From the NCBI RefSeq assembly GCF_041260155.1, contig NW_027248395.1:62001-126000 (forward strand): DNA of 64,000 nt, read 5' to 3'. Below are positions 11,320-58,759 of this stretch, piece after piece. The DNA comes from Ptychodera flava (Eukaryota > Hemichordata > Enteropneusta > Ptychoderidae). Within the stretch, counting starts at the first letter, position 1. Every line of letters starts with the position of its first letter. The notes below the pieces were generated by a model. The model saw nothing but the letters and a program-made list of their open reading frames with translations, was not told the DNA's origin and ran no database searches. The position numbers and the translations under genes are program-made.

Positions 11320-11905
11320 TGTCGCATAATCATGGACCTATCACAACCAAGGGATGATAGCTTCAATCACTACATCAGCAACGAAGACTACACCCTCACC
11401 TACTGCCACGTGGAAGATGCCGTTGCGATATATTAGACACTTGGCAGAGGTGCACTCCTCACAAAAGTGGTACATTAAACACGCATTCTGCCTGTGCCCG
11501 GTGGGGAAAGCAGACTGGCACCTCCTCAGCTTCAAATGGCAAGGGCTGTTCTTCTTCAATCATGTGCTACCCTTCGGCCTTCGGTTGGCACCATTCCTAT
11601 TCAACCTTCTGGCCGAAGCACTCCTCAGGATTGTCAATCACAAAGCAAACTCTCAGGACTTATTGCATTACCTGGACGACTACCTTGGTGCTGCCCCCAA
11701 CTCCCCACAATGCCACTACCTCCTTGCCACAATGATCAACACATGCTACAACCTCGCAATACCTATCGCCCTGGAAAAAGTCGAAGGTCCATCAACTACC
11801 ATCATGTTCCTGGGCATCACCTTGGATATGCTCACCATGACACTGTGTTTGCCAGACGATAAGCTACAGAACCTGCTTCAAACACTCCCAACTTGGCTCC
11901 ACTGA
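11320..11905 (+). pseudogene. DIRS reverse transcriptase fragment
   Basis: The N-terminal part carries IMDLSQPRDDSFNHYI and EDYTLTYCHVEDAV (about 11325-11430). A frame change follows, then a 183-codon block (11354-11905 frame) contains FKWQGLFFFNHVLPFGLRLA, FLFNLLAEALL, HYLDDYLGAA and FLGITLD. The LDD catalytic pair is at 11675-11680. These are the characteristic palm motifs of DIRS-type RTs, which have LDD in place of the usual YxDD. At least one frameshift separates the fingers from the palm, so no complete RT is encoded. Confidence 0.85.
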
Positions 11906-16230: not shown

Positions 16231-17430
16231 ATGGCGGAATTCAAGCCAGACGAATTTATGGATGACCTTGATCGGGACACATTTAATTCCCTCAGAAAAG
16301 ACAACCTCATAGCACTGGCAAATTTCTTTAAAGTAGATGTCAAAAGATCTATGCGCAAGCGAGAAATACAGTTCAAGATTGCAAAACATTTAGTTAATTC
16401 TGGCAATTTTTAGGAGTCTGAGTCTTCCTTCGAACTCAAAAAATTAGAATTAGAAATACAGGCAGATTTGGAGTTTAGGAAATTGGAATTGGAAAAGGAA
16501 AAATTGCAAATGGAAGAAAGGGAAATGCAGGAAAAATTACGAATGAAAGACAAAAAATTACAAATGGAAGAAAGACAGAGAGAAAAGGAGAGAGAATTGG
16601 AAGAACATCGACTACAGTTAGAAATGAGACGTTTAGAGCTTGGACTGTCAGGAAAATTCTTCCCTTCAGACAAGTTTGACAGCACTAAGCATTTCAGTTT
16701 AGTTCCCCCTTTCCAAGAAAAGGATGTTGATAAATATTTCCTTCATTTTGACGAAATTGCTCAGAGTCTGAACTGGCCTAAGGAGTCCCGGTCTATGCTT
16801 CTGCAGAGTGCTTTGGTGGGTACAGCCAGAGAAATTTACATTCAGTTGTCAGTAGAGCAGGCTTCAGATTATGATTCTGTGAAGGAATTAATTCTCAAGG
16901 GCTATGAGTTGGTGCCTGAAGCTTACCGTCAGAAATTTAGGGATTGTGAGAAGGTGAAAGATCAAACCTATGTTGAATTCGCTCGGACAAAAGAACAACT
17001 GTTTGATCGTTGGTGTTCTTCGGAAAAGGTCAGTCAGATTTATGACAAATTACGACAACTTGTTTTGATTGAGGAATTTAAAAGGTGCATCCGGAGTGAC
17101 ATCAAGACGTTTATCAATGAACAAAAGGCAGATACATGGAGGTTGCTGCACGTTTGGCCGATGATTATTAATTGACTCACAAATCTTCATTTCTCAGCAA
17201 ACCATCCCTGTCCTTTTCCTACAGAGTCAATGCAGGTAAATTTAACTCCTCCTTTCATCCAAGAATTTCTCAAAGGAGAGTAGAAAATCAAATGACAGCG
17301 GTTCACAGAGTTCAAGTAACACTCCCACATCATCAGATCCCAAGTCTCAATCTCCTTCTGACAAACAGTTCGGTACACTTTCTTGTAATTATTGTAAGAA
17401 AGACGGCCATTTAATGTCAGATTGTTTCAA
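16231..17430 (+). pseudogene. gag: gag (coiled coil, SCAN-like capsid region, zinc knuckle), broken
   Basis: The structural protein forms the retrotransposon particle. The start at 16231 (ATGGCGGAATTC) follows the primer site by 80 bases. An in-frame TAG at 16411-16413 interrupts codon 61, and the same frame continues to a stop at 17173-17175. After the stop come a Lys/Glu-rich coiled coil (about 16440-16650) and a helical region (about 16708-17140) with KDVDKYFLHFDEIAQSLNW, LVGTAREIYIQLS and GYELVPEAYRQKF. This resembles the SCAN domain, which is known to derive from the gag of Gmr1-like elements. A CCHC knuckle, CNYCKKDGHLMSDC, lies at 17384-17425 in another frame, so a frameshift lies between 17140 and 17380. 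Confidence 0.85.
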
Positions 17431-19639: not shown

Positions 19640-21030
19640 AACAACAGGTGAAAGAACTGCTCCATGAATATAAACACCTGTTTCAAGATGTTCCAACGAG
19701 GACAAACGTCATCTATCACGACGTTGATGTTGGGGACAGTAAGCCTGTAAACAACATCCATACAGACTGAATCCAACGATAGCGAAATATTTCCACGAAG
19801 AAGTAAAATACCTGCTGGACAATGACTTTATTGAACCCAGTAAAAGTAACTAGAGTTTGCCGTGCATACTTGTTCCCAATCAGATCACAGTTATCGTATG
19901 TGCACGACTTTGGAAATTCAACACTTTAACAAAGACAGACACTTTCCCGATCCCGAGGATTGATGACTGCATCGACTGAGTGGGAAAAGCCAAGTATGTG
20001 ACGAAATTTGACCTACTGAAGGGATTTTGGCAAGTCCCTCTGACGGATCGTGCTCGTGAAATATCCGCCTTTGTTACACCAGACGGATTGTTCCAGTACA
20101 AGGTGATGCCATTCGGAATGAAGAACTCTCCGGCAACGTTCCAACGGATGATCAACGATGTCATATCCGGGCTAAACGGATGTGCAGCTTACGTCGACGA
20201 CGTCGTCCTGTATAGTGACACCTGGGAAGAACACATCAAGCTCATGCGGAAGTTCTTTGAGAGACTGAGCAAAGCAATGTTGACTGTCAACCTTGCCAAA
20301 TCTGAGTTTGGTTGGGCGAGGGTGACTTACCTTGGACATACTGTAGGACAGGGTGAGGTGAAACCTGTTGATGCCAAAATCAGTGCCATTTCAAGTTTTC
20401 CCTTACCAAACTGCAAACGACAACTGATGCGCTTTCTGGGTATGGCTGGTTACTACAGAAAATTCTGTCCAAATTTCTCCACAATTACTGAGCCTTTGAC
20501 TAACTTACTTAAAAAGAAAGTAAAGTTTGTTTGGTCAGAGCAATGCCAACAGGCATTTGATACACTTAAAGCCATACTGCAAAGTGCTCCAGTGTTGTCT
20601 GCACCAGATTTCACTTTGCCATTCAAATTAGCTGTAGATGCTAGTGATACGGCTGCTGGTGCTGTTTTATTGCAAGAGGATAGTCATGGTGTAGATCATC
20701 CTGTTTGCTATTTTTTACGCAAATTTACAAATCCCAGAGAAACTACTCTACCATTGAAAAAGAGTGTTTATCTTTGATATTAGCTTTACAGCATTTTGAA
20801 GTTTATGTTACTTCTTCAAATCAGCCAAAAGTCGTCTATATTGATCACAACCCTGTTTTTCTGCAGAAATTTATAAGGCAAAAATCAGAGATTGTTAAGA
20901 TGGAGTTTAATGTTACAGGAGTTTAATCTTGATATTAGACATATCAAAGGCAGAGACAATTTAATTGCAGACTGTCTCTCTCGTATTTTGACTTCATTGT
21001 TGTTCACTTTCAAGAAATTTAACTTTAGAG
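19640..21030 (+). pseudogene. Reverse transcriptase and RNase H, frameshifted
   Basis: A 265-codon block (19980-20777) holds KYVTKFDLLKGFWQVPL, FQYKVMPFGMKNSPATFQR and the catalytic AAYVDDVVLYS (YVDD at 20190-20201). The thumb/connection motif FLGMAGYYRKFCPNFS and the RNase H start LAVDASDTAAGAVLLQ follow. A frame change near 20735 separates this from STIEKECLSLILALQHF (RNase H Glu). A further change precedes RHIKGRDNLIADCLSR (about 20935-20985). Upstream of 19980 the RT N-terminus is interrupted by stops. Typical Ty3/gypsy RT/RH order, but downstream of integrase. Confidence 0.92.
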
Positions 21031-29247: not shown

Positions 29248-29251
29248 TTAA

Positions 29252-29280
29252 AGGGATGGTCCACCCAAAATATAATCTGC
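29252..29280 (+). repeat. Left terminal inverted repeat of Kolobok copy 1
   Basis: AGGGATGGTCCACCCAAA plus about ten partly matching bases. The first 18 bases are the exact complement of the right end (37907-37924). Confidence 0.9.
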
Positions 29281-29564
29281 TGTATACAGGTGTATATATA
29301 TGCCAGAAACGCATTTATCATAACTTTTTGCACAGAATGTGCGGTTTGTTGAAGTTATACACGAAAATAAAAATTAAAATCGGCCAATATGGAGCCTTTT
29401 CTATTCGACTGTGGGTAGCCATATTTGCTACTCATCCGTAAAGCATGCCGGGAGAAATACCCGGATGATGACGTAAAGTTTTCGGGTTTTGATGCATCGG
29501 CTAGGGGGTCTGATCTAGGGAGTCTCGTCTACCTACAACTTGTGTGCACGGGAACAACGGAAAC

Positions 29565-29917
29565 ATGCCTGCCTGTAAATATTACGGATGTGACAATGAT
29601 CGTGAGCGAGATTTGGATAAAGCATTCTATATCATTCCCAACCCGATGAAAAAACCCGCCTCTGCAAATTGTGGCTGTTAAACATCGGCACTGACATTAG
29701 TTTTCAAAACTATAAGTACAGTTCAAGTTTTTGCGTATGCGAAGACCACTTTCAAGACGATGACTTTGTCGGCAGTTCGACGATTCACAACCAAATCGGA
29801 ATAAGGAAACGACTTCGAGATGGTGCCGTACCGCAAAACTACTGGAAAACGTTGGTGAAAAGGAGCTCGAGGACATCGAAAAACGATTGAGAGAAACTCT
29901 CTCCGTAACAGAAAAGA
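29565..29917 (+). pseudogene. THAP-domain exon of the Kolobok transposase, frameshifted
   Basis: THAP is a C2CH zinc-finger DNA-binding domain used by several transposases to bind their own ends. The ATG at 29565 begins MPACKYYGCDNDRERD; the first two Cys are at 29574 and 29589. In another frame follow CKLWLLNIGTD and CVCEDHF (Cys 29738-29740, His 29747-29749), completing C2CH. An AVPQNY segment matches the conserved AVP box. One missing base near 29650 and another near 29850 split the frame. After the second, the frame reads EDIEKRLRETLSVTEK into a donor GAAAAGAG|GTTAGT (GT at 29918). The domain is therefore clear but currently broken. Confidence 0.85.
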
Positions 29918-32019
29918 GGTTAGTTGGCAATAATTTATGATTTTTCTGAGCCGCCGGAGAGTTGTGTTTTGATCACCTTTCTCACCAAAAAGTTAACTTG
30001 TTATACTTGTTATTCGGACGACATCGCATAGGTATTTAAAAACATAAATATCGTGTTATCAATTGAATCAAAGGTTTGTTTTTGCGCGGTCATATTTCAT
30101 CACAACAACGCAACTAGCGTCCGCGTCACAACACCGGAAACGATCCATACGGTAAAATGCCTAGTCTGACAAGGGTGTCAAAGAATTCAGGAAAGGGATT
30201 GATCGACTTTCTCACAACTAAAAATCACATCATGCTAGATATATCGCATAATTTCTTGTGCATGGGAAGACATTTTGTCAGTAGTCATTTATACTCTGCT
30301 AGTTCTGAATTAGAAGCTTTGCGTAGATGATAACGTTCATCATTATGGATCGCAGGCAAATGTCCGACATGAGCAAATATGAAGTTTTGTCTTACATGTA
30401 GACAAAATATTGACACGTCAGACTAAACTTTATAATTCGGCTTTTGTGTTGTAAGTTCATTTATTTTCTCGAATTTTATGCGTATCGCAAAAGCAAATTA
30501 GAGTCGAAAAATACTTAGAGATTCCGCCACTAGGCCTACATTGTAAAATACACAAATAAATTGTCGCATTTTTAGTGAAGTATACTTTCTAATGCGGAAT
30601 TACGACGGATTTTTCCCGAAACGATCTATAAGGAATTCTCGCTAAGTTTTTGATTGTTACTTGTTTTATGCTTGTTTTATGATTTGTGTGCCTTGAAGCG
30701 AGTAGGTCTGTTCACGGTTCTTTTTGGTACCGTGGTCGGTATCGACATTGCAACAAGTTGACAGCAGACAAACGGCGACTCGGAACCGCGGTTTCCGATT
30801 AGCTCACGACCAGTTGATTTGTTATTACACAGGAAAATTTTAATATTGTTTTACGTCTGCTTGTTGAAAGGATAAATCGTAGTTTAATTTTGTGCCGCGA
30901 GAACAGTTAGTGTGTTTGAAGTTTAATTTTGTGCCCCGAGAACATTAAAAGTGTGTATAACATCTATTGTTTCGCTTGACGAAGGACACTCCATTTCAAG
31001 TCGACAACTGAGCCGTTTCCGGTCGTCCGCTTTGTCTCCCTCCCTCCCTCCGAGCTCCCCATGGCACTTGAAATTGTCTCGTAAATCTGTCACTCCTTTT
31101 CCTTGGTATAAATTTATATCAGCTGGACAACTAGCACTCTGAGTTCGCATTTTTCGATAAAAAGTACGTTGTTATTAAAAAGAAGTGTCCATATTTTGAA
31201 ACCAGCGTTTCAATGGCAAAATAGGTGGAGCAAATTCGACATTCAATCCTATTCGAGCGTTTGAAATCCAACGACAAATCGAGAATAGCTTGCAATGCTT
31301 ATCGAAGTGTTTTGCCCGAAAACATATCAATTTGGTCGCTAAGTTGGCTTCGTCACCAGGCGATCGAAGATCCGTTCAACTCCATGCATTATAAACTTGT
31401 ATGGCTTCCTATGGTAACTGGTCGTTTCCGTACCCAACAGTTACGGCCGAAGTCGTTTCCAGCACTGAATTTCCCAACCCCACTGCAAGCTGTTTTGGCT
31501 GCGGGACCCGGAATATTTCGGCAGTCGATAACTAAGCGATATTGCTTCAAGTGTTTTTGTACTAGTTTAGTTTACATGCATAGAGCTCTTGTCGAACTCT
31601 ATTGAACGTGTGCTTTAGTTTGCTTTCACTTTCACGGGCATGTCGGGCATGAACGGTGAACGAACAAAAAGTTCGTTCAGGTGCCATGTGGTAGCGGCCT
31701 CCCTACGTACTGGTCACTTTCTTTTCCCAATGAGGGATTTGATTTTAGCAGTTTGTAGTATAAATTTAGAGAGTTCTAATCAATTGTAGCGTGACAGGAC
31801 ACTGGTCTGATTACTGAGAAGAGAGACGCTTGAATGTTTACACTTCAATGACCATTATAGTGAAAAGAAAAATTGAACCCCTCCCCCATCCACCCACTGT
31901 CCGTAGACACTTTACCGGTATATATAGAAAGGTGATTAAGTAGTTATATTGAAGTATACTAATTGAATATATGAGCACAATGTATTCTAAATCAAAATTT
32001 TCTGTGCTTAATTTTATAG

Positions 32020-32464
32020 TTTGTGGACAAATTGATTCTGGAATCAGAGACGCAAGAACTGGTTGAAGAAAATGGAAATCAACTGATCCAACGCATTGGT
32101 AAGTGCATTTCAAATTTCATTGTAAAATTTAGAACCCATGATCACCAATCATTTTTTGTTACATAACGTCAAACAACACTGCTTTGGTATCAACGAACTT
32201 GTATCATTTTCATAGCTGTGACTTTTGATGATAATTGTAATTGGATGTATTGTATGCATGCATGAGCTTAGAACAATATTCATCTTACAGCTATATGGCA
32301 TTGTACAAAATACATTTGATGTGCGTCTTTAGCATAACAATGTTCTCATTAATCCAACAGTTAAAAAAGTCAAGCGACATGATGACAATAACACCACCAT
32401 AGTAGTTGAATCTGGACAGAATGGGACCATATGTCATCCAACATTACTCACAAGTCAAGATCAG
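32020..32464 (+). CDS. Kolobok transposase exons 2 (32020-32098) and 3 (32361-32464)
   Basis: Exon 2 follows the acceptor GCTTAATTTTATAG and ends at GCATTG|GTAAGTG. It encodes a Glu-rich helix (KLILESETQELVEENGNQ), likely coiled coil. Exon 3 follows TTAATCCAACAG and ends GATCAG|GTGTGT, encoding KKVKRHDDNNTTIVV and onward. Exon 2 ends in phase 1 and exon 3 restores it, ending in phase 0, so exons 2, 3 and 4 join in one open frame. Coordinates cover the two exons and the 262-bp intron between them. The link to the THAP exon is less certain because that exon is frameshifted. Confidence 0.65.
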
Positions 32465-32898
32465 GTGTGTATTGTTTTATATGTATAAACTGTGTTTTTT
32501 TCTGAATTTCTGAATAACTTTAAACATTACAATTGCATAAATATTCACTAAATACTGTTTCACTGTGTAAGTTGCATTGAAGTTATAAGCAGCTGAAATG
32601 GTTTCAATGCATGTGGAATATGTGAATTTCCTCTATAATATAACAAAAATATCTTTCCATGGGCAAAAGAGTTTGCTTTGACCTTGTTGACCAAGTTTCC
32701 ATGTGTAATGAAGAGATTTGTTAAATCATAAAGTCATTTGACTGAGGACAAGTATACTCAAGAATTGTGGGTATTTCTGTACTTTTTGTATTACTTATAT
32801 TCAGAAATATGATAGGAAGACTGTTTCTTGTCAAGAAGAATCATTTAGCATTTATAAAAAAATAATCTGACTGATGCATTTTATCTTTTTATGTACAG

Positions 32899-34861
32899 TG
32901 CATTTCAAAACACACCACTGCAGAAATTGGTATTCAAACCATGGAAAATGCAAGTAATGATGTTTGCACCCAAACTATCCCAAATCAACAAGATGCTTCA
33001 GTACAGACTGACCTGGATACACAGCTGTCATACTCTCCATGTCCAAATTGCAACATAGATGTCACCAGAAGAGTGACAACCACCCGCATGATCACACCTA
33101 TTCCCAGAAATCTAGAAGTGTTGAAAATATCGAAAGATCCCATACTCCAGAACCAAGAATCATGATGACATCCCCCTTCAATGCAACATCCACACCAACA
33201 TGCAAAAACGATCAGATACCCATGAAACAACACTGTCTGACATCACAAGTCAAGACATGGACACATCACAGTCATCAATAGAAAGTGACTACGATGACGT
33301 AGAAGACCTGTCATTTAACCCAGACTCAGTTGAAGACAGCCTCACCGACACAGAAGGCGATGAACCATGCGATATTGCCAAGTCATTAGCTGAAGACAGA
33401 AAATTCATAGTTTTTGAGCAACAGTTAGATATTCTGCTAAACTGTTTAACCTGTCCCCAGTGTAATAGCAGCACATCCCCTGACGACACTAAGAAGAAAA
33501 CTACAGATGGCACACTACTTTCAGTCACAACATTCTGTTTCAATGGACATCGCATTTTACAGTGGGACTCTCAACCATGTTTTGGCAAGATGCCTGCTGG
33601 TAATCTACTGGTGTCTGCTGCCATACTGATCAGTGGTCTATCCTATCAACGCATCAGTCATTTTGCCATGCTTCTCAACTTAGAGTTTATTGGCAAATCC
33701 ACATATTTTCTCAACCAGAAGAACTATGTGTCACCATCCATCAATGCAGCTTGGGAAGAAGAGCAGAGAACAATTATCCAAGATAATTCAAGAACAACAG
33801 TCAACATTTGCGGAGATGGTCGGTGTGATTCACCTGGGTACAGTGCCAAATACTGCACATACACCGTTATAGATGAGGAATCCAGCAAAATTCTAAACTT
33901 CAGTTTAGTTCAAAGCAGTGAAGTTGGCAGCTCAAGTAGGATGGAAAAAGAAGGATGCAAGAGAGTTGTGGATTATTTGACCAGTGCAAATATAAATATC
34001 AACATCCTTGCTACAGACCGGCATGTTCAAATCAGAAGCATGTTGCTGAAAGAATACCCAGGTATAAAGCACCAATTCGACGTATGGCACTTCTCCAATT
34101 CAATCAAGAAGCGACTGACCCAAGCTGCAAAGAAGAAAGGGTGTGAAGATCTCAACCCCTGGATCAAGTCCATTTGCAATCACCTCTGGTGGTGTGCTGC
34201 TCAGTGTGAAGGTGATGAACAGCTACTGGTGGAAATGTGGTCATCAATTGGGTACCATGTGGCCAATAAGCACAAATTTCCCAGGAGGTTTAGCAAAGTG
34301 AAAGCGTGTGTACATGGTCCCATCAGCAGAGAAGCTGAGAGAAAGAAGAAGTGGATGAAGATGGGAAGTGCACCACACAAAGCCTTGATGTCTATTGTCA
34401 CTGATAAGAGAATCCTGAAGGACATCAAACACCTCAGCGAATTCTGTCATACTGGTAGTCTTGAAGTTTACCATAGTATGATGACCAAATACGTACCAAA
34501 ACGTCAAGAGTTTGACTATGAGCAGATGTTGGCCCGAACCCAACTTGCTGCACTCGACCACAATGCAAATGTGGGCCGGGCCCATCGAAGAAACAAGAAT
34601 GGTGACTTGCAGTGGAGACCTGTATGTCCAAAAGCTACCAACACATGGATAGTGAAGAAAGTGTATGAAGAAAAGTCCTACGAGTGGGCCAAGCAGCTGA
34701 TAGTATCCACCCTGCTGCAAAAGATAGGACATGACAAAAGTGTACCAGTGGCCAGTACAAGAACACACCATGTGAATAGTCTCCCAAAGAATATAGCACC
34801 TGTGCCAGCACCACCAAAAGAAGATCTGCTACAAAGGTATCAAAGCCGGTTTCAGCGATGA
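32899..34861 (+). CDS. Kolobok transposase catalytic exon (553 open codons from 33200)
   Basis: The transposase would cut and rejoin the element at TTAA. The exon starts after TTTTTATGTACAG at 32899, in phase with exon 3. The first frame (IQTMENASNDVCTQT) is open to about 33160. At least one frameshift then moves into the long frame, open from about 33125 and with its first ATG at 33200. Counting from that Met: CPQC (85-88) with C113/H117, a zinc-ribbon-like cluster; CGDGRCDSPG (D206/D210); LATDRHVQIR (D273); FDVWHFSNS (293-301); GSLEVYHSMM (E422). These are the presumed DDE residues of a Kolobok transposase. A polyadenylation signal AATAAA follows at 34905-34910. Apart from the N-terminal frameshift the catalytic exon is open throughout. 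Confidence 0.85.
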
Positions 34862-34904
34862 AAAAACTGACAATAGCACCGCAATGCAAAAGAAAAGAAA
34901 TGCA

Positions 34905-34910
34905 AATAAA
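34905..34910 (+). terminator. Polyadenylation signal after the transposase exon
   Basis: AATAAA 44 bases after the stop codon of the catalytic exon; plausible position for 3' end formation. Confidence 0.5.
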
Positions 34911-35850
34911 TGAAAACATGTAACTTGTTATGAACATAAAAGTCATCAGCACAGCTATCAATATCTGAAAATGGTACTTTCTTCTGCTGACCTGAATGCT
35001 ATTATTTTCCTGTACTTATCATTATCAGTCTTCTACCAGTACCTGTAAACAACATATTTACACAAGACATTTACTTGGTCATTTGTTTTATTGTAAACAT
35101 TGTATTTAAAATACAAGCTAGCATGTAAATGTATACAGAATTATTTATCTAGACATCCCATTCCCCAGTACAGCTGTACTGTAATTACAGAATGAATAAA
35201 GTGTCACTTTATGTGTCGCATGTAAACACCATGTGAGATAAATCTGACAAATCAAATGTGCAAATAATGCAGCAATTCGAAAAAGCAAGGTAGAAAAAAA
35301 AACAGTAGCAGTGATTCCACTGAACAAATTTTGTCGTTAAAGTGTACCTAGTCTCTTGTAGTTATTCATTTCAGACTGAGTACAGGGAACTTGAAATATG
35401 TAACTGTTTTGCCCATCCAGTGTTTCATTGCTATTCAGATATGCCTGAAGTAATGATTCTCGCTGAAAACAACTCCATAAATCGACTGTGAAAAAGGTCA
35501 CAGTTCGCAGTGATAAGCATAGTGATATTGCAACATTTCTTGGTGTTCAACTTTCAGTATTTATCATACCACAACAATGTGATTTAAGTGTTTTTAAATG
35601 TTTCTTCTTACAAATGCTTTCTTTGCATATCTTTCCACAATTTCTATGGCACTGTTTTTGAAAGAAGACTCAAATGTCATTGCTATGACAGAACCAAGGA
35701 TATATTGTAAATAGAAATATCAAAAGTTTTGTACAAATGAATGTGTTGTGTGCAATGAAAAAAGATGACAGTGACAAATGTTAAAGTCTATGATTTGTAT
35801 GAGTGTCCTTGGCAAACGGCAGTGGAAAATGTATGCTGTTGTAGTTGTGT

Positions 35851-37631
35851 TTACTTTTCCTTGAACCCAATGTAATCTTCACCGTCTCCTTTTGGGTACT
35901 TGTTTCTTATGGCAGTGACAACACAAGATGGGACAACCTTTCTCACACCTTGACCAAGACGTTGCCAGGAGTGTCCCCATGCAATAAACTGTCTGTATGC
36001 AGCCAAACGATACTGCCTGTTAAAAAAACAAAGATAGGAAATATTAATGAATATCACATTGATTTAAACTGTGACAAATAACTCTCTAGTCAAACCCTGG
36101 TCTAAATTAAAAATCACAAGTGCAGGGTAGGTACTACATGGATAAGTGACATCAAAAATTGCTGTATTGCTAAATGGACATTTAATACGGACATTTATTA
36201 CCATAAAAAATGTAATTCAAATGAAACAGCTCATAATTTTTACCAACAAAATCCTACTGTGTTTAACCACTAGATTATGACTGTAAATGCCGACATAGAG
36301 GATGTGTTTCAGATTTCGGTTTCACAAGACAAAGAGAGTAAAAATATTAACAGAAATATATCCATCGTCCTACTCTCTCACTCTCTTAAAATTATGTAAT
36401 TTTGAGCCCAGTCATAATTCAAGCAATTCCACCTAGTGCAATGTGCAAACAAACCCACTTCTCTACAATTAGAGCTGCTGACATGGGAGGAGCCCTCTGA
36501 CCCACTTCAACAAGTAAGTCGGCGGTTGCCCTGCACCCCAACAATCAATTCAAAGCAATCGTTTATGAATAATATGATAAACCATTGGCAATCCCACTAC
36601 ATTAACATCCATGAAGAACGAGTTCTTTGAGTATGGACTCGGCACAGAGGTCCATGGTTTGAGAGGGACCGTGGTTTGACTTTGAGTAGGGAAATGCTGT
36701 GTGGGTTCCAATAGAGACATGGTAGAACCACATTTGGTAATCATGCTTCACATTATTAACGTGCAGCTGGAAACACCTAACCCTACATTCTATACATTGT
36801 CATGATTGTGCTTATACCTCATGGCATGTAGTCGACCGACGAAAGCCAGGCACTAGTTGTCGGCATAAATTGTTCGAGTCAAAGACTTTGACTTATCTCA
36901 TTCAAAATGTTTTGAACAAGGTCGTGCAAGCATTTGGTTTGCTTTGATCATGGACCGTGGACGTCGCGTCATCACGCCATGTCAATCATGTTTTGATCAA
37001 GTATAGAGTCGCACTGACCAATGTCAGCGTCCACTGATCTGCATCGGCCGACTTACTGTATTTATTGACAACAACGAACACTTGAATCAATTAATCCGAA
37101 GGTTTATACACTGGCTTTACAACTTACACGGGTCCCGTCCGATGAAACTAAGATGAAACAATGTGGGCTAAACAACGGTCTACACGGCTAGAGAGAACGC
37201 GCAACTTACTTGTTTGACAGGGTTTCACTTTCAACAGTGTCGGTATGTCGACGCTTCCGGTTAAGTTCTTGTCGAATAAACGCAGTTCCAAGGACAGCAG
37301 GGTGAAGACACACTACTTTGAAATCGACGTGTTCTGTAATGCATGAGTTTGGTTCAAGTTCTGGTCTACTTTGTAGAAAGTCACACTTTTGACAGCAAAT
37401 GCATTCCACTTGCGAAGCCATTGCACTGCATTTGCCACACGAACACCAGTTGTCGCTACCTTCAAGTTCAGCGTGGTTCTCTTCCGAATCGAAAGAGTGT
37501 ATGCTGTCGTCACCTTCCGACTCTGTAGATGTGTCAATGTATTCGTCGGACAAATCTGGTTCGAAGTCATGGAATTCGCAATCGCTGAATTCAGGTTCGA
37601 AATTGTAGGGTTGAAGGCCGGGTGCTTCCAT
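35851..37631 (-). CDS. P2X7 cytoplasmic-ballast-domain protein, Kolobok passenger gene (two exons)
   Basis: Exon 1 runs 37631-37210 and exon 2 runs 36016-35851 on the minus strand. The donor AAACAA|GTAAGT and acceptor TTTGTTTTTTTAACAG|G join a Lys codon exactly (2+1), giving 195 residues with no stop; an alternative upstream Met at 37670 would give 208. The N-terminal third is acidic with repeated FEPEFSD/FEPDLSDE motifs. Then come SDNWCSCGKCSAM, ECICCQKC and SCITEHVDF. Exon 2 adds YRLAAYRQFIAWG, VPSCVVTAIRNKYP and YIGFKEK. The W-C-x-C-G-x-C, CC, CIT, AYR, PSC, IR-x-x-(Y/F)P and GFK landmarks match the C-terminal ballast of vertebrate P2X7, where cysteines bind zinc and the domain binds guanine nucleotide. 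There are no membrane segments or channel domain. Its role in the element is unknown. Confidence 0.85.
36017..37209 (-). other. Intron of the P2X7-ballast-like gene
   Basis: GT at 37209-37208 and AG at 36018-36017 on the minus strand, with a T-rich tract before the AG. 1,193 bp, no long open frame on either strand that I would call. Confidence 0.7.
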
Positions 37632-37928
37632 CGTGGTGTGCTTGTATCTCAATGTAAACCAACGGCACATAAGACCCCCTAGCGATACCCCCTAACTTCC
37701 TCAGCCCAACACGAAAACTTTACGTCATCAAAGTTGAAGCCTCGCGGAGGCATTCCGATAGGTGGCGCTTCCTTACAGCGAAAATGGCGTCATACACAAC
37801 ATAAAATAAAAACTTAATTTCTCGGACAATAAACAATAATTTTTTCATTTTTTCAACATGAATGTTACAAATATAATCTTCTTCAACTTTTAAAGGCAGG
37901 TTAATATTTGGGTGGACCATCCCTTTAA

Positions 37929-50048: not shown

Positions 50049-51929
50049 CATACTAAAGTCTACCAAAATCTGACCACCGGAAACGTGTCATTTTCAAGAT
50101 GGCGTCCAAAATGACCGCCATATACTTAAAATGGCCATAACTACTTAAATATTAAAGCTAGACTAGTGATGTCTGTGTCTACCACCACGTTTTGGTGGTT
50201 AAGGAATCCAGGTACCATATCTAGATTATAGGAAAGTGATCATAAGTCCCATAATATGCATATTTATACATGTATTAAAATAATCACTGTCATATTCTTC
50301 ATCCGGAACGTGTTGCTTATGTGGATTTTCACAATTTTTGAGGTTAGGTAGTAAAGGGAAAGCAACTCCGCACATCATTCATATTTGGATTGTTTGCATT
50401 TTGTGTATGAAATTGTGTATAATATAAGTGCATCTCATGTTTGGCTGTTTTATGTAAAATGTTGCTTAGGCATGGCTAGACGTACCCGTCATCTACGTGT
50501 CTTGATGTTACTCCGCACTGGAGCTGAGAGACTAGTGTGACACTGCGATCCTTTAGCGCTACGTTTCAAAAACAGTTTTCTTCATCAGTCGCTTAAAATT
50601 CATTCTTGACTGGTGAGACGTGTTGAATGGTTGATTGTTTTTATTTGGTAGTATGTTGTTCTACATACGTTTGTTGTTCAAGTAGGGAAGCTAGAATGTC
50701 TACTGTTTGGTCTTGTTGTGTTTGTGTAGGTTCGTGTGAACCTGAGTTCGAGCTGTTGTCGCTTTTGTGAAGTCTGGCGCTTATAAGTGTGTCGCCTATA
50801 TTTCTGTTCCTTCTATATGCGATTGTTGGTTGATTTTGGAACAGTCTTTTTAGTGTTTCGTCTTTTTCAAGTTCACTCCAGTTTTCTGTCAGGGCTTGCT
50901 TGATTTTTGTCGTTTCGATGTACGGGCTATATGTTGTTATGAAGACTACTGTATTGTTTGTGGCGTTCTTTCTTTCTTTTTGTTGTTCAAGCTGTCTTTT
51001 TCTGCTTTTATGATCTGTTTCTCTGATAATGCGTTCTATTTCATTTTTTATATCGTCGGTCTTGTAATTTTTCACTAAATTGTGTGACTTTCTGTGTAAA
51101 ATCGGCTTCGTTGTTGCATGTTCTGATGTATTGAATGTTTCACCTTTGATAAGACCTTTGAATGTTGCTGTCCGATGGCATGAGTTTCTTTGTAAGAACT
51201 GGAATGTATCTGTTGGTTTTGTGTGTGTCTTGGTGTCGAGAATGTTCTCTTTGTTATATCGACGACCTTTGTAGATAGTCAGGTCTAAATATGTGATTTC
51301 TTAAGGAGCTTTCAACGAAAATTTGAAAGTAGGATGCATTTTGTTGATGTTTGATATGAATTCATTGAGTTCGTGTTGTGTTCCGATGAAAGTCAGAAAA
51401 ACATCGTCTCTGAACCTCAGCCAGGTCGGTATTTGTTGTTCGTGTTTCTGTATTATTCTCATTTCTGTATCGTGAAATGAAATAACTGCTATTTCCCGAG
51501 ACGAGAGAGACCCCATAGAGCACCCCATATTTGCCTGTAGAATTCATCGTTGAATTCAAATGTTGTTTTTAAGATTATTTCTGGCAGAGCTATCATGCAT
51601 TTCGTTGGTGGCTGCTTGATTATGTAATTGTTTGATGATCCTTCCTGATTTAAAGGAATAGTCCACCCAAATAACAAACTGCCTTTAAAAGTTAAAGAAG
51701 ATTATTATTGTAACATTTATGATGAAAAGATGAAAAATGTGCTGTTTATTAACCTAGAAATTAATGTTTTATTAACTGATGTGTATGACGCCATTTTCGC
51801 GATATGGAAGCGCCACCTATCGGAATTCCTCAGAGAGGCTTAACTTTTGATGACGTAAAGTTTTCGTGTTTGGTTGAGGAAGTTAGGGGGTATCGCTAGG
51901 GGGTCTAGTCTACCGTACGTTTCTATTGA

Positions 51930-52180
51930 GCTACTGCCCCATAGATACACTTTGCCTTCAACCTATAACTTTGAACCGGAATTCAGCGACTCTGAACTCC
52001 AGGATTTCGAACTTGGTATTTCCGACGAAAAGACGGACACATCGATAAATTCAGAAGTAAAAGAAGGGCACGTGGCTCCACCAGTTACCGAAGGAAGCTG
52101 TACAAGCATGGCTCTTTTGGTAGCTCACCGTTACGTGGCCATGTTTGGAGCTGAACCACGGTCCCTCCACCGTGGCTGAA
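51930..52180 (+). pseudogene. Relic of the P2X7-ballast-like exon 1 in Kolobok copy 2
   Basis: An open frame contains TYNFEPEFSDSELQDFELGI, the same acidic repeat as the intact gene at 37631-37210, then diverges. The WCSCGKC box is lost, and only CTSMALLVAHRYVAMFG-like remnants mark the position of CSAMASQVECICC. Exon 2 is absent. It is non-functional, but confirms that the passenger gene belongs to the Kolobok family and not just to one copy. Confidence 0.8.
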
Positions 52181-54589
52181 CACATCTTCGATATCGCCTG
52201 GTGACGAAACGAACTCTAACTTACCCACAATGGTTGTACTTTTGGGTAGAACATTTTGATCAGCATTGCAAGCTAGCTGTTATCACTTGAAAATACGATG
52301 TTGGATTTCAAACTCCCAAAGAGAACTGTATGACGACATTGCTCCGCATGTTTAGCCATTGCAACGCTGGTTTTAAAATACGGTTAACTCTTTTTATAAC
52401 AAAGAATGATTAGCGAAAATTGCCAATTCAAAGTGCTAGTTTTTCAGTTACATATAGAAAAAGAATGAACGAACGAGGAAAAAAATTCCAAGCACCGTTC
52501 CCCATGGGGGAGGGAGGAGAGACAAAGCGGACGACCGGAAACGGCTTAGCCAGTCTGACTCTAAATGGTGCTTCCCTTATCTAACAAGCAACATTTATAC
52601 ATACACACTTTCATATTCTCCGGGGCACTAAATTAAACTTCAAACATACTTTCATGTTCTAGGAGTACTAAATGAAATTTCAAATTATCCTTTCAACGTA
52701 CAGTCATAAAAACACACTAAAATTTTCCTGTTCTCACAACTCACATTGAACTTTAAACGTAAGTTACCGGTAATTAGAAACCGCCATGGAAAGGGATCGT
52801 GAATCCGAGTAGCCGTTGCTGCTGTCAACTTGGTGCAGTCTTGGAAAAAAATAATTGAGGATGGTCAAAATCTGAAAGCTACGACTTCACGACCAGTCAT
52901 TGGGAAAACTTTTGGAAAAATTCAATACTTTCCAGCAACGTCCGGGCGACAGGTCGTGAGAGAAACGACCGAAAAATAAACCTGAAAGCCACGACCTCGC
53001 GGCCGGTCTCGGAGAAAAATGTCGGCAAAAATTCAACACTAAAGTTACAGCCACGACCTCGCGACTGGTCGTAGAGAAAAATACAGAAAAAAGGAATGAA
53101 ATAAACTACCTTTCGACAGATCGGGAGCGGGAAGATGGCAAAATTAAAAAGTCATGTACTATTATATAGCAATATGGAAAGAACAGCTCTAAGAAAAAAA
53201 TCTGAATCATGGTTACTCTACGCTACAAGAATAATGGTGTCTTAATAGCCTGACTGAGAAACGTAAAATATATTCGATCACACATATTGAGTATATGATT
53301 CCGTTTTATTTCACTTTGGAACTTAAAGTTTTCAGGCTTTAGCTCAATGATGTTATTCTATGTGCTTGCTGAGGTTGAGTGGCGTGTTTGAATTACGATA
53401 CGATGCAATCAAATCTTTGCGTAGTTACATGGAAATTTCTAGAAACCCCACAACAGAGAGCCTCGGTTTTCACTACAATCCAAAATTGTCGTACGGCCGG
53501 TCGTGCAGCGTGCTTATTAGTCTGGCAGAGACCCTGCGATTCGCGTTCTCTCCTGTTTGAACACGCGCGCCCTTCAGAGACGCGACGTGAATCCCAGGGT
53601 CTGGACGTTCTTGCAAGCGACCGGTCGGATTTCTGCCTGATCCGGGTACTTTACAGAACTCCACACATCCGTTAATCAAACAAAAAATGACAAGTACCTT
53701 AGCCAAATAAAATGAAAAATGAAAAATAAAAACATACCGCATATATAGGTCTACTAGCTAATAGTGTAATATTCTCTCCGCCCAGTTAGATAGGTGTTTC
53801 TTTTGACGTCACTACCCTTATTGAATATTCATATACTTGCAAAACGGACAGTCGCTGTGTCTGGCAGCGCGTGCTCACAGCTGCACAGCGTAGCCTTTGA
53901 ATGTAGGCCCATCGTGGGCGCGCATAAACAAGGAACAGCGACTGTGGAGAGTCTACGTGCTTATATGAAACTTTGGGTCATTTTGGACCACTTTTTGAAA
54001 TCCATTTGATAATATATTTGGGGAAAATCATATTCCGCTCTGGCAATGCAGTAACAAACTTCACTTACTGCTTCTTGTATTTATTTACAATTTAGTGGCA
54101 AAATTGCTCATTATTTTTTTCGACGCCACAAAAATATGACTCGCCGCCGTGGTATCGTAGACACATTGAACTTACAGCATGGATGCCCGATAATACGGTT
54201 TACTTTGACGTGCCTATTTATTTCTAAAAGGAAGGAGAGACTTATGTCTGAAATTTTTCCGACATCAATGAAAGTTGTCATATACGCATCTACTTCTTTC
54301 TCGAACTCTTTTGAACCTATTCTTGGCTCCAGATAACTCATGTCAACATATGGATCGTTTCCGTTGACTTGATGCGTGGATGCTGTAGTTGCGTTGATGT
54401 GGTTAAACATGCCCGAGCAAAAATACAACTTTCTATTTCAACTGATCACTTTATTATGTTTAAATACCAATGCGATGTCATCAAAATAATAAGAATAATA
54501 AGTAAACTTGTTGTAAGAAAGACGATCTCAACAAATTCTCCAGCGGTTCAGAAAAATCATAAATATTCAAACCATGAACCTCTTTTCTT

Positions 54590-54930
54590 TTATATGGAGA
54601 GTCTCTCCCACAATATATCGCCCTTGTATGTCCTCTTTTCACCAATGCATTTGCTTTCCAGTGTAAGTTTGTGGTACAGCATCATCTTGAGGTCTCTTCC
54701 TAATCCAAATTTGATTGTGGATCGTCAAACTGCCGACGAAGTCCTTCTCTTGGAAAGGGCATTTGCATACGTAAAACATGCACTGCACTTATAATTTTCA
54801 AAACTTCTGTCAGTGGCAATCTTTACCGGCAATAATTTTTAGAGGCGGTGTTTTCACTTTGGGTTTCGAATCATTCAGATGCCTTATCGAAATCTCGCCC
54901 ACGATTATTGGTACATCCCTAATTCTTACA
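54590..54930 (-). pseudogene. Relic of the THAP exon in Kolobok copy 2
   Basis: On the minus strand the sequence aligns with 29650-29860 of copy 1: a TGCGTATGC-like C-V-C segment, the GACTTCGTCGGCAGT match, ACGATCCACAATCAAAT, and a GATGATGCTGTACCAC match to the AVP box. The histidine of the C2CH set is replaced by a Pro codon and frames shift, so the domain is dead. Confidence 0.75.
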
Positions 54931-56476
54931 GGTAGGCATAAAGTATTTATGAGACTCCCTAGATCAGACCCCCTAGCCAATGCACCAAAACACGAAACTT
55001 TACGTCATCATTCGGGCATTTCTCCCGACATGCTTTGCGAGGGAGTAGAAAATGGCAGCGCACAGTCGGCTTAAAAGGTCTCCATATTGCCTGATTTTGA
55101 TATTTATTTTCATAGATAACTTCAACAAATCGCTGTTTCTGTGCAAAAAGTAATGATAAATGCTTTTATGACATACATAGAAATCTGTATGAGGCAGATT
55201 ACATTTTGGGTGGACTATTCCTTTAATGCTCGGCCCACTGATTCAACTGCCTCATCATTTGGTGTATTCGTGTACATTGAAATTACATCTAGTGTTACTA
55301 GTGTCACATTGGCCGGTACTTTGATTGTCCTAATTAAGTCTGTTGTATCTTTGATGTATGTTGATGGTTTCTTGACGATGTAAAATGTTGGACAGGAGCT
55401 TCCACTTATAATTGGCCGCCCTACGAGCTTAGTTCCTGGTGGCGACATTTCATGAATTTTCGGTAGAAGGTACCAAAGTGGTTTTCTTATTTTTCTATTG
55501 ACTGGATTCAAATATTCAAATATGGGATAGTCAATATGTTTTTCATGGTACATTTCTGTTGTGAGATTGTGTATAGTCTTCTATTGTAGTGTTTGTGTCA
55601 TCTATTGCCAATTTTGTGTACATCGTTGATAGCTAAGTTGACATTGGCATTCTCTTATGTAATCATCAGTGTTTAAAACCGCTGTCCCCCGTCCTTTATC
55701 AAACAGTTTGATGATTATCTTCTTGCTTTTCGATAGCGTTTTCAACGCTATTTTTCTGTATGTGTCATGTTTGCGTTTCGAATAGGTGTGTAAACAATAG
55801 CCGATTTTGTCGCTTCCGAATAATTTTCTAGCTTTGAGTTCTCAGTTGTATGTGGGATCCAGTTGTAGTTCATTTTGAATGGGTGTTGTACGGTTATCAA
55901 AGATCATCAAACAATTACATAATCAAGCAGCAAGCAACGAAATACATGATAGCTCTGCTAAAAATACTTAAAAAACAAAACATTTGAATTCAACATGAAT
56001 TCTACCGGGAAATATGGGATGCTCTATGCAGATATTACATTTTACGAGACAGAAATGAGAATAAAGAGAAACACAAACAACAAATACCGACCTGGCTGAG
56101 GTTCAGAGTCGATGTTTTTCTGACTTTCATCAGAACACAACACGAACTCAATGAATTCATATCAAACATCAACAACATGCATCCTACTTTCAAATTTTCG
56201 TTTGAAAGCTCCACTCAAGAAAGCATATATTTAGACATGACTATCTACAAAGGTCGTTGATACAACAAAAGGAACATTCTCGACAACAAGACACACATAA
56301 AACCGATAGATATATTCCAGTTCTTACAAAGAAATTCATGTCATACGGCAGCAACATTCAAAGGTCTTATCAAAGGTGAAACATTACGATACATCAGAAC
56401 ATGCAACAACAAAACCGATTTTACACAGAAAGTCACACAGTTTAGTGAAAAATTACAAGACCGACAATATAAAAAT

Positions 56477-57378
56477 ACTGCAATTATACGGTGTCGCTCA
56501 AATTTGATCAGAATTGAAACATAGTAGAATGGGTACCAAAGATCAACAATAAATGTTGTTTCTATCTGTTCAGTGCAGGAAAATTGTACGTTGATGTTAT
56601 GACAATGATTTCTGCACAGTACAACCAGAAAAACAACAAGAATTATTTAAACAAGAAAAACAATAATGAAAAAAGTAAATAAGGTCTGAAACTTTAGGTA
56701 CTGGAGGTCATCTTTAGCAGAATGCATAGCAGAAACTGCTAGTCCCTCTTAGTTTGAGCAGGTCTGTTAATTTCTAACAGTTCATAAACAATGGCAGAAA
56801 ATGACTCAAAGTCAGTGGAGTAGCCTGTTTCAGTCACTGGCATGCCACCACTCCTGCACATTTGCAGGATTACCCTTTCTCTCACCTCATTTGCACATTT
56901 TTGACACTGACGTGTTCATTTGAAGAACGTCACATCTAAACCCATGCATCTACCTGTACACCAAATACTGACATGGTAGCTTTGGCGGTATGGGAGCCTT
57001 TGCGTGTGACGGACACACACACATACATACATACATACATACATACATACATACATACATACATACATACATACATACATACATACATACATACATACAT
57101 ACATACATACATACATACATACATACATACATACATACATACATACATACATACATAACATACATACATACATACATACATACATACATACATACATACA
57201 TACATACATACATACATACATACAGACAGACAGACAGACAGACAGACATACAGACATACAGACATACAGACATACAGACAGGCATACAGACACCATCGAA
57301 TCACCATATAAGCTCTTTTTGGTATATATATATATATATATTATATATATATATATATATACATACCAAATACAAGCT
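56477..57378. mobile_element. 902-bp insert with 6-bp duplication AAAAAT, containing microsatellites
   Basis: Copy 1 reads GATATAAAAAATGAAATAG continuously. Copy 2 has AAAAAT (56471-56476), then 902 bp, then AAAAAT again (57379-57384). The insert starts ACTGCAATTATACGG, ends TACCAAATACAAGCT and shows no terminal inverted repeats. It contains a long (CATA)n tract and smaller CAGA and TA tracts. A retroposed or unclassified insertion is plausible. Confidence 0.7.
57017..57360. repeat. Compound microsatellite (CATA)n, (CAGA)n/(CAGACATA)n, (TA)n
   Basis: CATA repeats run from about 57017 to 57222 with one interruption near 57156, CAGACATA-type repeats to about 57292, and a TA tract at 57325-57360. 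The long open frames on both strands here (HTYI and CMYV repeats) are translation artefacts. Confidence 0.95.
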
Positions 57379-58759
57379 AAAAATGAAATGGAACGCATTA
57401 TCAGAGAAACAGATCATAAAAGCAGAAAAAGACAGCTTGAACAACAAAAAGAAAGAAAGAAAGCCACAAACAATACAGTAGTCTTTATAACAACATATAG
57501 CCCATACATTGAAACGACAAAAATAAAGCAACCCTGACAGAAAACTGGATAAACTTGAAAAAGACGAAACACTAAAAAAAATCTTCCAAAATCAACCAAC
57601 AATCGCATATAGAAGGAACAGAAATATAGGCGACACACTTATAAGCGCCAGACTTCACAAAAGCGACAACAGCTCATACTCAGGTTCACACGAACCTGCA
57701 CAAACACAACAAGACCAAACAGTAGATATTCTATCTTCCCTACTTGAACAACAAACGTATGTGGAACAACATACTACCAAATAAAAACAATCAACCATTC
57801 AACACGTCTCACCAATCAAGAATGAATTTAAGCGACTGATGAAGAAAACTCTGTTTTTGAAACGTAGCGCCAAAGGATCGCAGTGTCACACTTCTCTCCG
57901 CTCAAGTGCGGAGTAACTCAAGACACGTAAATTACGGGTACGTCTAGCCATGCCTAAGCAACATTTTACATAAAAAAGCCAAACATGAGATGCCTTTATA
58001 TTATACACAATTTCATACATAAAATGCAAACAATCCAAATATGAACGATGTGTGGAATTGCTTTCCCTTTGCTACCTAACCTCGGAAATTGTGAAAATCC
58101 GCATAAGCAACACATTCCAGATGAAGAATATAACAGTGATTATTTTTAATACATGTATAAATATGCATATTATGGGACTTATGATCACTTGCCTACAATC
58201 TAGATATGGTACATGGATTCCTAAACCACCAAAACATGGTGGTAGACAGAGAAATCACTAGTCTAGGTTTAATATTTTAGTAGTTATGGCCATTTTAAGT
58301 ATATGGCGGCCATCTTGGACGCCATCTTGAAAATGACACGTTTCCGGTGGTCAGATTTTGGTAGACTTTTAGTAGTCGCGCCAGCGGCTTACTGACTACG
58401 CATGCGCTTATTCATAATAACTATGCGAGTAACCGAAGTGTACCCTACTTTCTCAGTTGGGCGCCGCCATGTTTTTTTTTGAGTACTCGTAATAAACAAA
58501 ATACGAAACAAATTACTATGATATAGCATGCCTTTTATAAAATATACCTCTTTTATTAGCCAGTAAATGTTATTATACACCTTGTCGCTGATACAAAGTA
58601 TCGTTGATATAGATAAACGGAGAAAACTGTCGTGCACATGAACGGGGGCATACGCAAAGAATGCTGGGATTGAATTATAGAAGAGCGCCCCTGTGTCAAT
58701 AATTAGATTTCAAAATTGCAAGTTTTTAGACGGACGCTATAGTTTTCAGCTTGCAAGTG

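Follow-up and report, generated by a model that had tools for sequence, protein, structure and literature searches.

A probable KolX gene with a P2X7-type ballast domain in a Kolobok-type transposon of the hemichordate Ptychodera flava

A Kolobok-type element and its convergent genes

The window analyzed here is a stretch of 64,000 nucleotides from Ptychodera flava (RefSeq assembly GCF_041260155.1, contig NW_027248395.1, positions 62,001 to 126,000 of the forward strand), and all coordinates below are positions within it. It contains a Kolobok-type DNA transposon, element 1, of 8,681 bp including the TTAA at both ends (29248–37928), which carries a transposase region on the plus strand and, on the minus strand, a two-exon gene encoding a domain of the kind found in the cytoplasmic ballast of the P2X7 receptor. 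We consider it highly probable that this two-exon gene is KolX, which encodes the accessory protein of Kol0-type Kolobok transposons. An earlier sequence-only reading had recognized a P2X7-type ballast gene inside a TTAA-flanked, inverted-repeat-bounded Kolobok-type element, and the element ends, the transposase motifs and the family and fold matches described below all uphold this; the span that it quoted for the element, 35851–37670, falls far short of the actual one. It had further placed the gene antisense inside the transposon. The gene does lie within the element on the opposite strand, although the wording was loose, since the two genes converge and their frames do not overlap: the transposase frame ends at 34861 and KolX at 35851.

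Each end of element 1 consists of TTAA plus a terminal inverted repeat, located by pattern search (29248–29266, plus strand; 37910–37928, minus strand). The end sequence, TTAAAGGGATGGTCCACCC, is identical at 19 of 19 positions when read from 29248 (+) and from 37928 (−), suggesting that the insertion is fairly recent; similarity between the two ends extends over about 33 bp at 88%. A search of the window with a 19-bp pattern derived from element 1's own end, allowing up to three mismatches, gave four matches where 0.02 were expected; besides the two ends of element 1, these are the ends of another element, element 2. TTAA, the Kolobok target site duplication, flanks both ends of both elements, and the bases inside it (AGGG ... 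CCCT) follow the 5'-RR ... YY-3' pattern of Koloboks.

The transposase begins with a THAP-coding region (29565–29918, +) whose frame is interrupted in this copy; the piece at 29651–29830 matches Pfam THAP (2.6e-6), and the first 38-aa piece, searched alone, matched no family. Two candidate small exons follow (about 32020–32098 and 32361–32464, +), recognized as open frames with AG/GT borders, whose splice frames are not reconciled. The main exon (32899–34861, +) holds the catalytic frame (33125–34861), which has 578 codons and 726 database matches, including the window's own. Its residues D206, D273, D294, H297 and E422 are invariant in all 12 aligned rows and form the DDD/E arrangement with DxxH expected of a Kolobok, with E422 as the putative catalytic glutamate. 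The Pfam match of this frame, MULE (0.01), lies below the cut-off, and NCBIfam likewise gave only a match below cut-off. This copy carries at least one and apparently two frame changes in the THAP exon and one near 33125–33165, which may reflect mutation, assembly error or a missed intron.

KolX is read from exon 1 (37210–37631, −; start codon to splice donor), identified from the joined-exon translation and its P2RX7_C match, across a predicted GT-AG intron of 1,193 bp in phase 2 (36017–37209, −), into exon 2, which includes the TAA stop codon (35851–36016, −). The spliced frame (37631–37210 joined to 36016–35851) comprises 588 nt including the stop and encodes 195 aa. A P. flava protein annotated as 'P2X purinoceptor 7-like' on another contig has the same length and agrees at 193 of 195 residues, differing only by A3T and Y189C; it thus lends independent support to the in-frame two-exon model that the sequence-only reading had put forward. 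Another P. flava protein (129 aa) matches KolX at 93% identity over 62% of the query, with divergence then beginning within exon 1. KolX is presumably expressed.

An intact KolX beside a transposase with two or three frame changes, together with the NCBI annotation of the near-identical protein as a gene, raises the idea that this copy was domesticated as a host gene while its transposase decays. We consider this very unlikely, as the ends of element 1 are still identical and another contig carries the annotation of the near-identical protein, although this could be an allele or come from another assembly. By our estimate, about three frame changes per roughly 2.2 kb would leave 588 nt untouched with roughly even chance; the combination of intact KolX and interrupted transposase was rejected as a sign of domestication because it is statistically weak.

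KolX and the P2X7 ballast

The relationship to the P2X7 C-terminus is supported by family, profile and fold. P2RX7_C (E 1.9e-16; 61 bits against a cut-off of 23.5) is the only Pfam family above its cut-off in the 195-aa protein, which has no P2X channel domain, and an NCBIfam search gave no match. All four distinct PDB sequences retrieved at E up to 1 were P2X7, both with KolX alone (best 7.2e-5) and with a six-sequence profile (1.8e-18). The predicted structure matches the P2X7 ballast fold and probably represents a small soluble protein, with an acidic N-terminus that is modelled at low confidence and likely disordered. The ballast landmarks named in the sequence-only reading (WCSCGKC, CICC, SCIT, AYRQF, VPSC, IRNKYP and YIGFK) are all present in the translation. 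Identity to P2X7 is low (24–32%), as one would expect if the resemblance were a chance pattern of cysteines, a notion that the P2RX7_C score, the PDB profile match and the fold match refute, leaving it next to no probability.

Seven KolX cysteines (C63, 65, 68, 79, 80, 97 and 172) align with P2X7 C477, 479, 482, 498, 499, 506 and 572, that is, with all seven zinc-coordinating cysteines. Among 58 aligned KolX-like proteins, drawn from 120 listed among the 499 found, six of the seven are kept in 58/58 and C63 in 57/58. KolX is predicted to bind zinc. An eighth cysteine, C108, occurs in all 58 KolX-like proteins versus none of three aligned P2X7 tails and may mark ballast domains that are free-standing. 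The guanine-nucleotide residues described for rat P2X7 are R546, H547, R574, R578 and K583 (PMC7016195). Three of the five (R546, R578 and K583) have equivalents in this KolX, whereas H547 and R574 do not. Across the 58 rows the counts are 57 for R546, 56 for R578, 2 for H547, 1 for K583 and 0 for R574, so that only R546 and R578 are general, a pattern in agreement with what PMC7016195 describes outside deuterostomes.

A tree of 57 KolX-like rows and three P2X7 tails (P0214 was left out because its trimming motif is absent; 49 of the 60 rows are unlabelled) places P2X7 on a branch of length 5.59, and with few columns and long branches it is silent on the direction of transfer. Pattern searches in viral contigs returned four stretches for KolX and 35 for the transposase, and in prokaryote genome contigs nine for KolX; tblastn identified no relatives among any of these.

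A second element and a sign of selection on KolX

Element 2 (51650–55226) is a related non-autonomous element of 3,577 bp in reverse orientation, with two mismatches in each end. It aligns with element 1 in three blocks: the left end (74%), the interval after the THAP exon (71%) and the right end (80%). Alignment to element 1 also uncovers a remnant of the 5' part of KolX exon 1 (51941–52057, +), which has lost its ATG and has a one-base gap, and which occupies the same place relative to the element end as in element 1. Over 39 codons, the remnant differs from KolX at 6, 6 and 18 sites for codon positions 1, 2 and 3 (Fisher p 6e-4), and this third-position excess indicates selection on the KolX frame during the divergence of the two element lineages. 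The THAP region shows differences at 27/87 third versus 30/176 first and second positions (p 0.011), computed on two of three pieces with frames set piecewise; the third piece, outside that test, has no third-position excess (6, 4 and 4 of 27, 25 and 25), and we give this comparison no weight.

Some observations weigh against this picture of a selected, transposon-borne gene. The terminal DNA adjoining the remnant differs at only 48 of 291 positions, below the third positions of KolX, and may be constrained itself, which makes the neutral rate for the comparison uncertain. In addition, linkage of free-standing ballast genes to a pair of markers is described in animals ranging from sponge to sea urchin (PMC7016195), a conserved arrangement that is not reconciled with a transposon origin of the domain. 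Were the two markers, shown in Figure 6 of PMC7016195, themselves transposon genes, the conflict would vanish.

The conserved linkage, the spread of free-standing ballast genes across animals (PMC7016195), and the intron and opposite strand of KolX would all suit the capture of a host, nanor-like ballast gene as a passenger of this one Kolobok copy or family, and acquisition from a host locus was the alternative that the sequence-only reading had named as its refutation. We give such capture very little credence, as the diverged element 2 retains the KolX start beside the same end and Kol0 Koloboks are described as regularly encoding KolX as their second protein (PMC9587614).

When the flanks of element 2 are joined at a single TTAA, an open frame is lengthened by about 50 codons, and this restored frame gives modest support to insertion at TTAA. 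The frames on either side (50641–51300 and 55215–55580, −) resemble parts of one Penelope-type retroelement (reverse transcriptase) split by the insertion, a name that is not confirmed: the frame across the empty site matched no Pfam family at E up to 10, no reverse transcriptase in the PDB at E up to 1, and nothing in plasmids.

Retroelement sequence occurs elsewhere in the window. A SCAN-domain frame (5.9e-9; 16414–17175, +) is followed downstream by frames for reverse transcriptase (2.8e-30) and RNase H (9.5e-22) at 19980–20777 (+), and together they resemble a Gypsy-type retroelement whose gag is SCAN-like; SCAN domains derive from the gags of such elements. Another reverse transcriptase fragment, matching RVT_1 at 3.1e-13, is found at 11330–11905 (+), and a long simple-repeat tract (56916–57537) yields open frames on both strands.

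Origin, possible role and known systems

Kol0 Koloboks, the originally reported group, are described as encoding a transposase and KolX (Kojima and Bao 2022, PMC9587614, citing Kapitonov and Jurka 2007). According to Kojima and Bao, KolX is clearly similar to residues 476–595 of P2X7, P2X7 arose when a P2X4-like gene became fused to KolX, Nanor is probably KolX in domesticated form, hemichordates are among the Kolobok hosts, and the membership of ballast proteins in Kolobok families had previously not been pointed out (PMC9587614). Rump et al. 2020 had followed the ballast domain across animals, including Saccoglossus, in a main text where the string 'transpos' does not occur (PMC7016195). We provisionally place element 1 in Kol0 from its second protein, a KolX with a ballast domain, rather than from a transposase tree. 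As already published (PMC9587614), the P2X7 tail is this KolX-type domain joined to a channel, and the sequence-only proposal that a transposon supplied the receptor with this domain agrees with that conclusion without being new. As the link was published in 2022, the P. flava element is a further example, and a clear one, from a deuterostome phylum outside the chordates; our literature search found no report of a Kolobok in P. flava, and the family may already be named in Repbase. What is added here is the small sign of selection on KolX, seen as third-position bias between two elements, and the resulting question is what a KolX with a zinc site, and possibly guanine-nucleotide binding, does for a THAP/DDE transposase.

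The THAP/DDE transposase would insert the element at TTAA, and we somewhat favor, as the most likely role for KolX, that of a trans-acting helper of transposition. Its main rival, less likely though a serious contender, is that KolX has a regulatory function in transposition or a host-directed one, in nuclear import, repair or silencing for instance. The present evidence does not separate these roles and offers no specific point against the latter, and zebrafish Nanor, which is related to KolX, was believed to act in transcription (PMC7016195).

A more specific and improbable possibility, drawn by analogy, is that KolX might serve in the Kolobok transpososome as a subunit that responds to guanine nucleotides, equivalent in trans to the GTP (guanosine triphosphate)-binding insertion domain of the P element transposase. 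It is suggested by the guanosine nucleotide site reported for the P2X7 ballast (PMC7016195) and by the GTP requirement of the P element transposase, a THAP/DDE enzyme of the C/DxxH group that holds the nucleotide in an inserted domain that is helical almost throughout (PMC7776569); P and Kolobok transposases are described as having this motif in common (PMC9587614). Contrary to it, two of the five P2X7 contacts are missing in this KolX and three of the five in most KolX-like rows. If it were true, the guanine-nucleotide site of P2X7 would have been inherited from a transposition cofactor.

Among known systems, Kol0 Koloboks as described in PMC9587614 are a close match, having the TTAA target site, a DDD/E transposase that contains DxxH, and an additional protein bearing the ballast domain and its seven cysteines; this comparison by published descriptions establishes no difference from element 1. 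Free-standing ballast (ZCD) proteins such as Nanor (PMC7016195) resemble KolX in being short, with a C-terminal domain and no other known domain, whereas the KolX gene here sits between transposon ends. The P2X7 cytoplasmic ballast (PDB 6u9v, 8tr5, 9e3m and 9e3q) has the seven cysteines, the fold and the C-terminal YxGFK in common with KolX, which differs in having no P2X channel domain, no equivalents of H547 and R574, and, along with KolX-like proteins generally, a C108 absent from the three aligned tails. The P element transposase (PMC7776569) is similar in its THAP domain, DDE core and C/DxxH motif, and its mostly helical guanine-nucleotide binding domain, to which KolX is likened by analogy only, participates in transposition; that domain lies within the transposase, whereas KolX is a separate protein.
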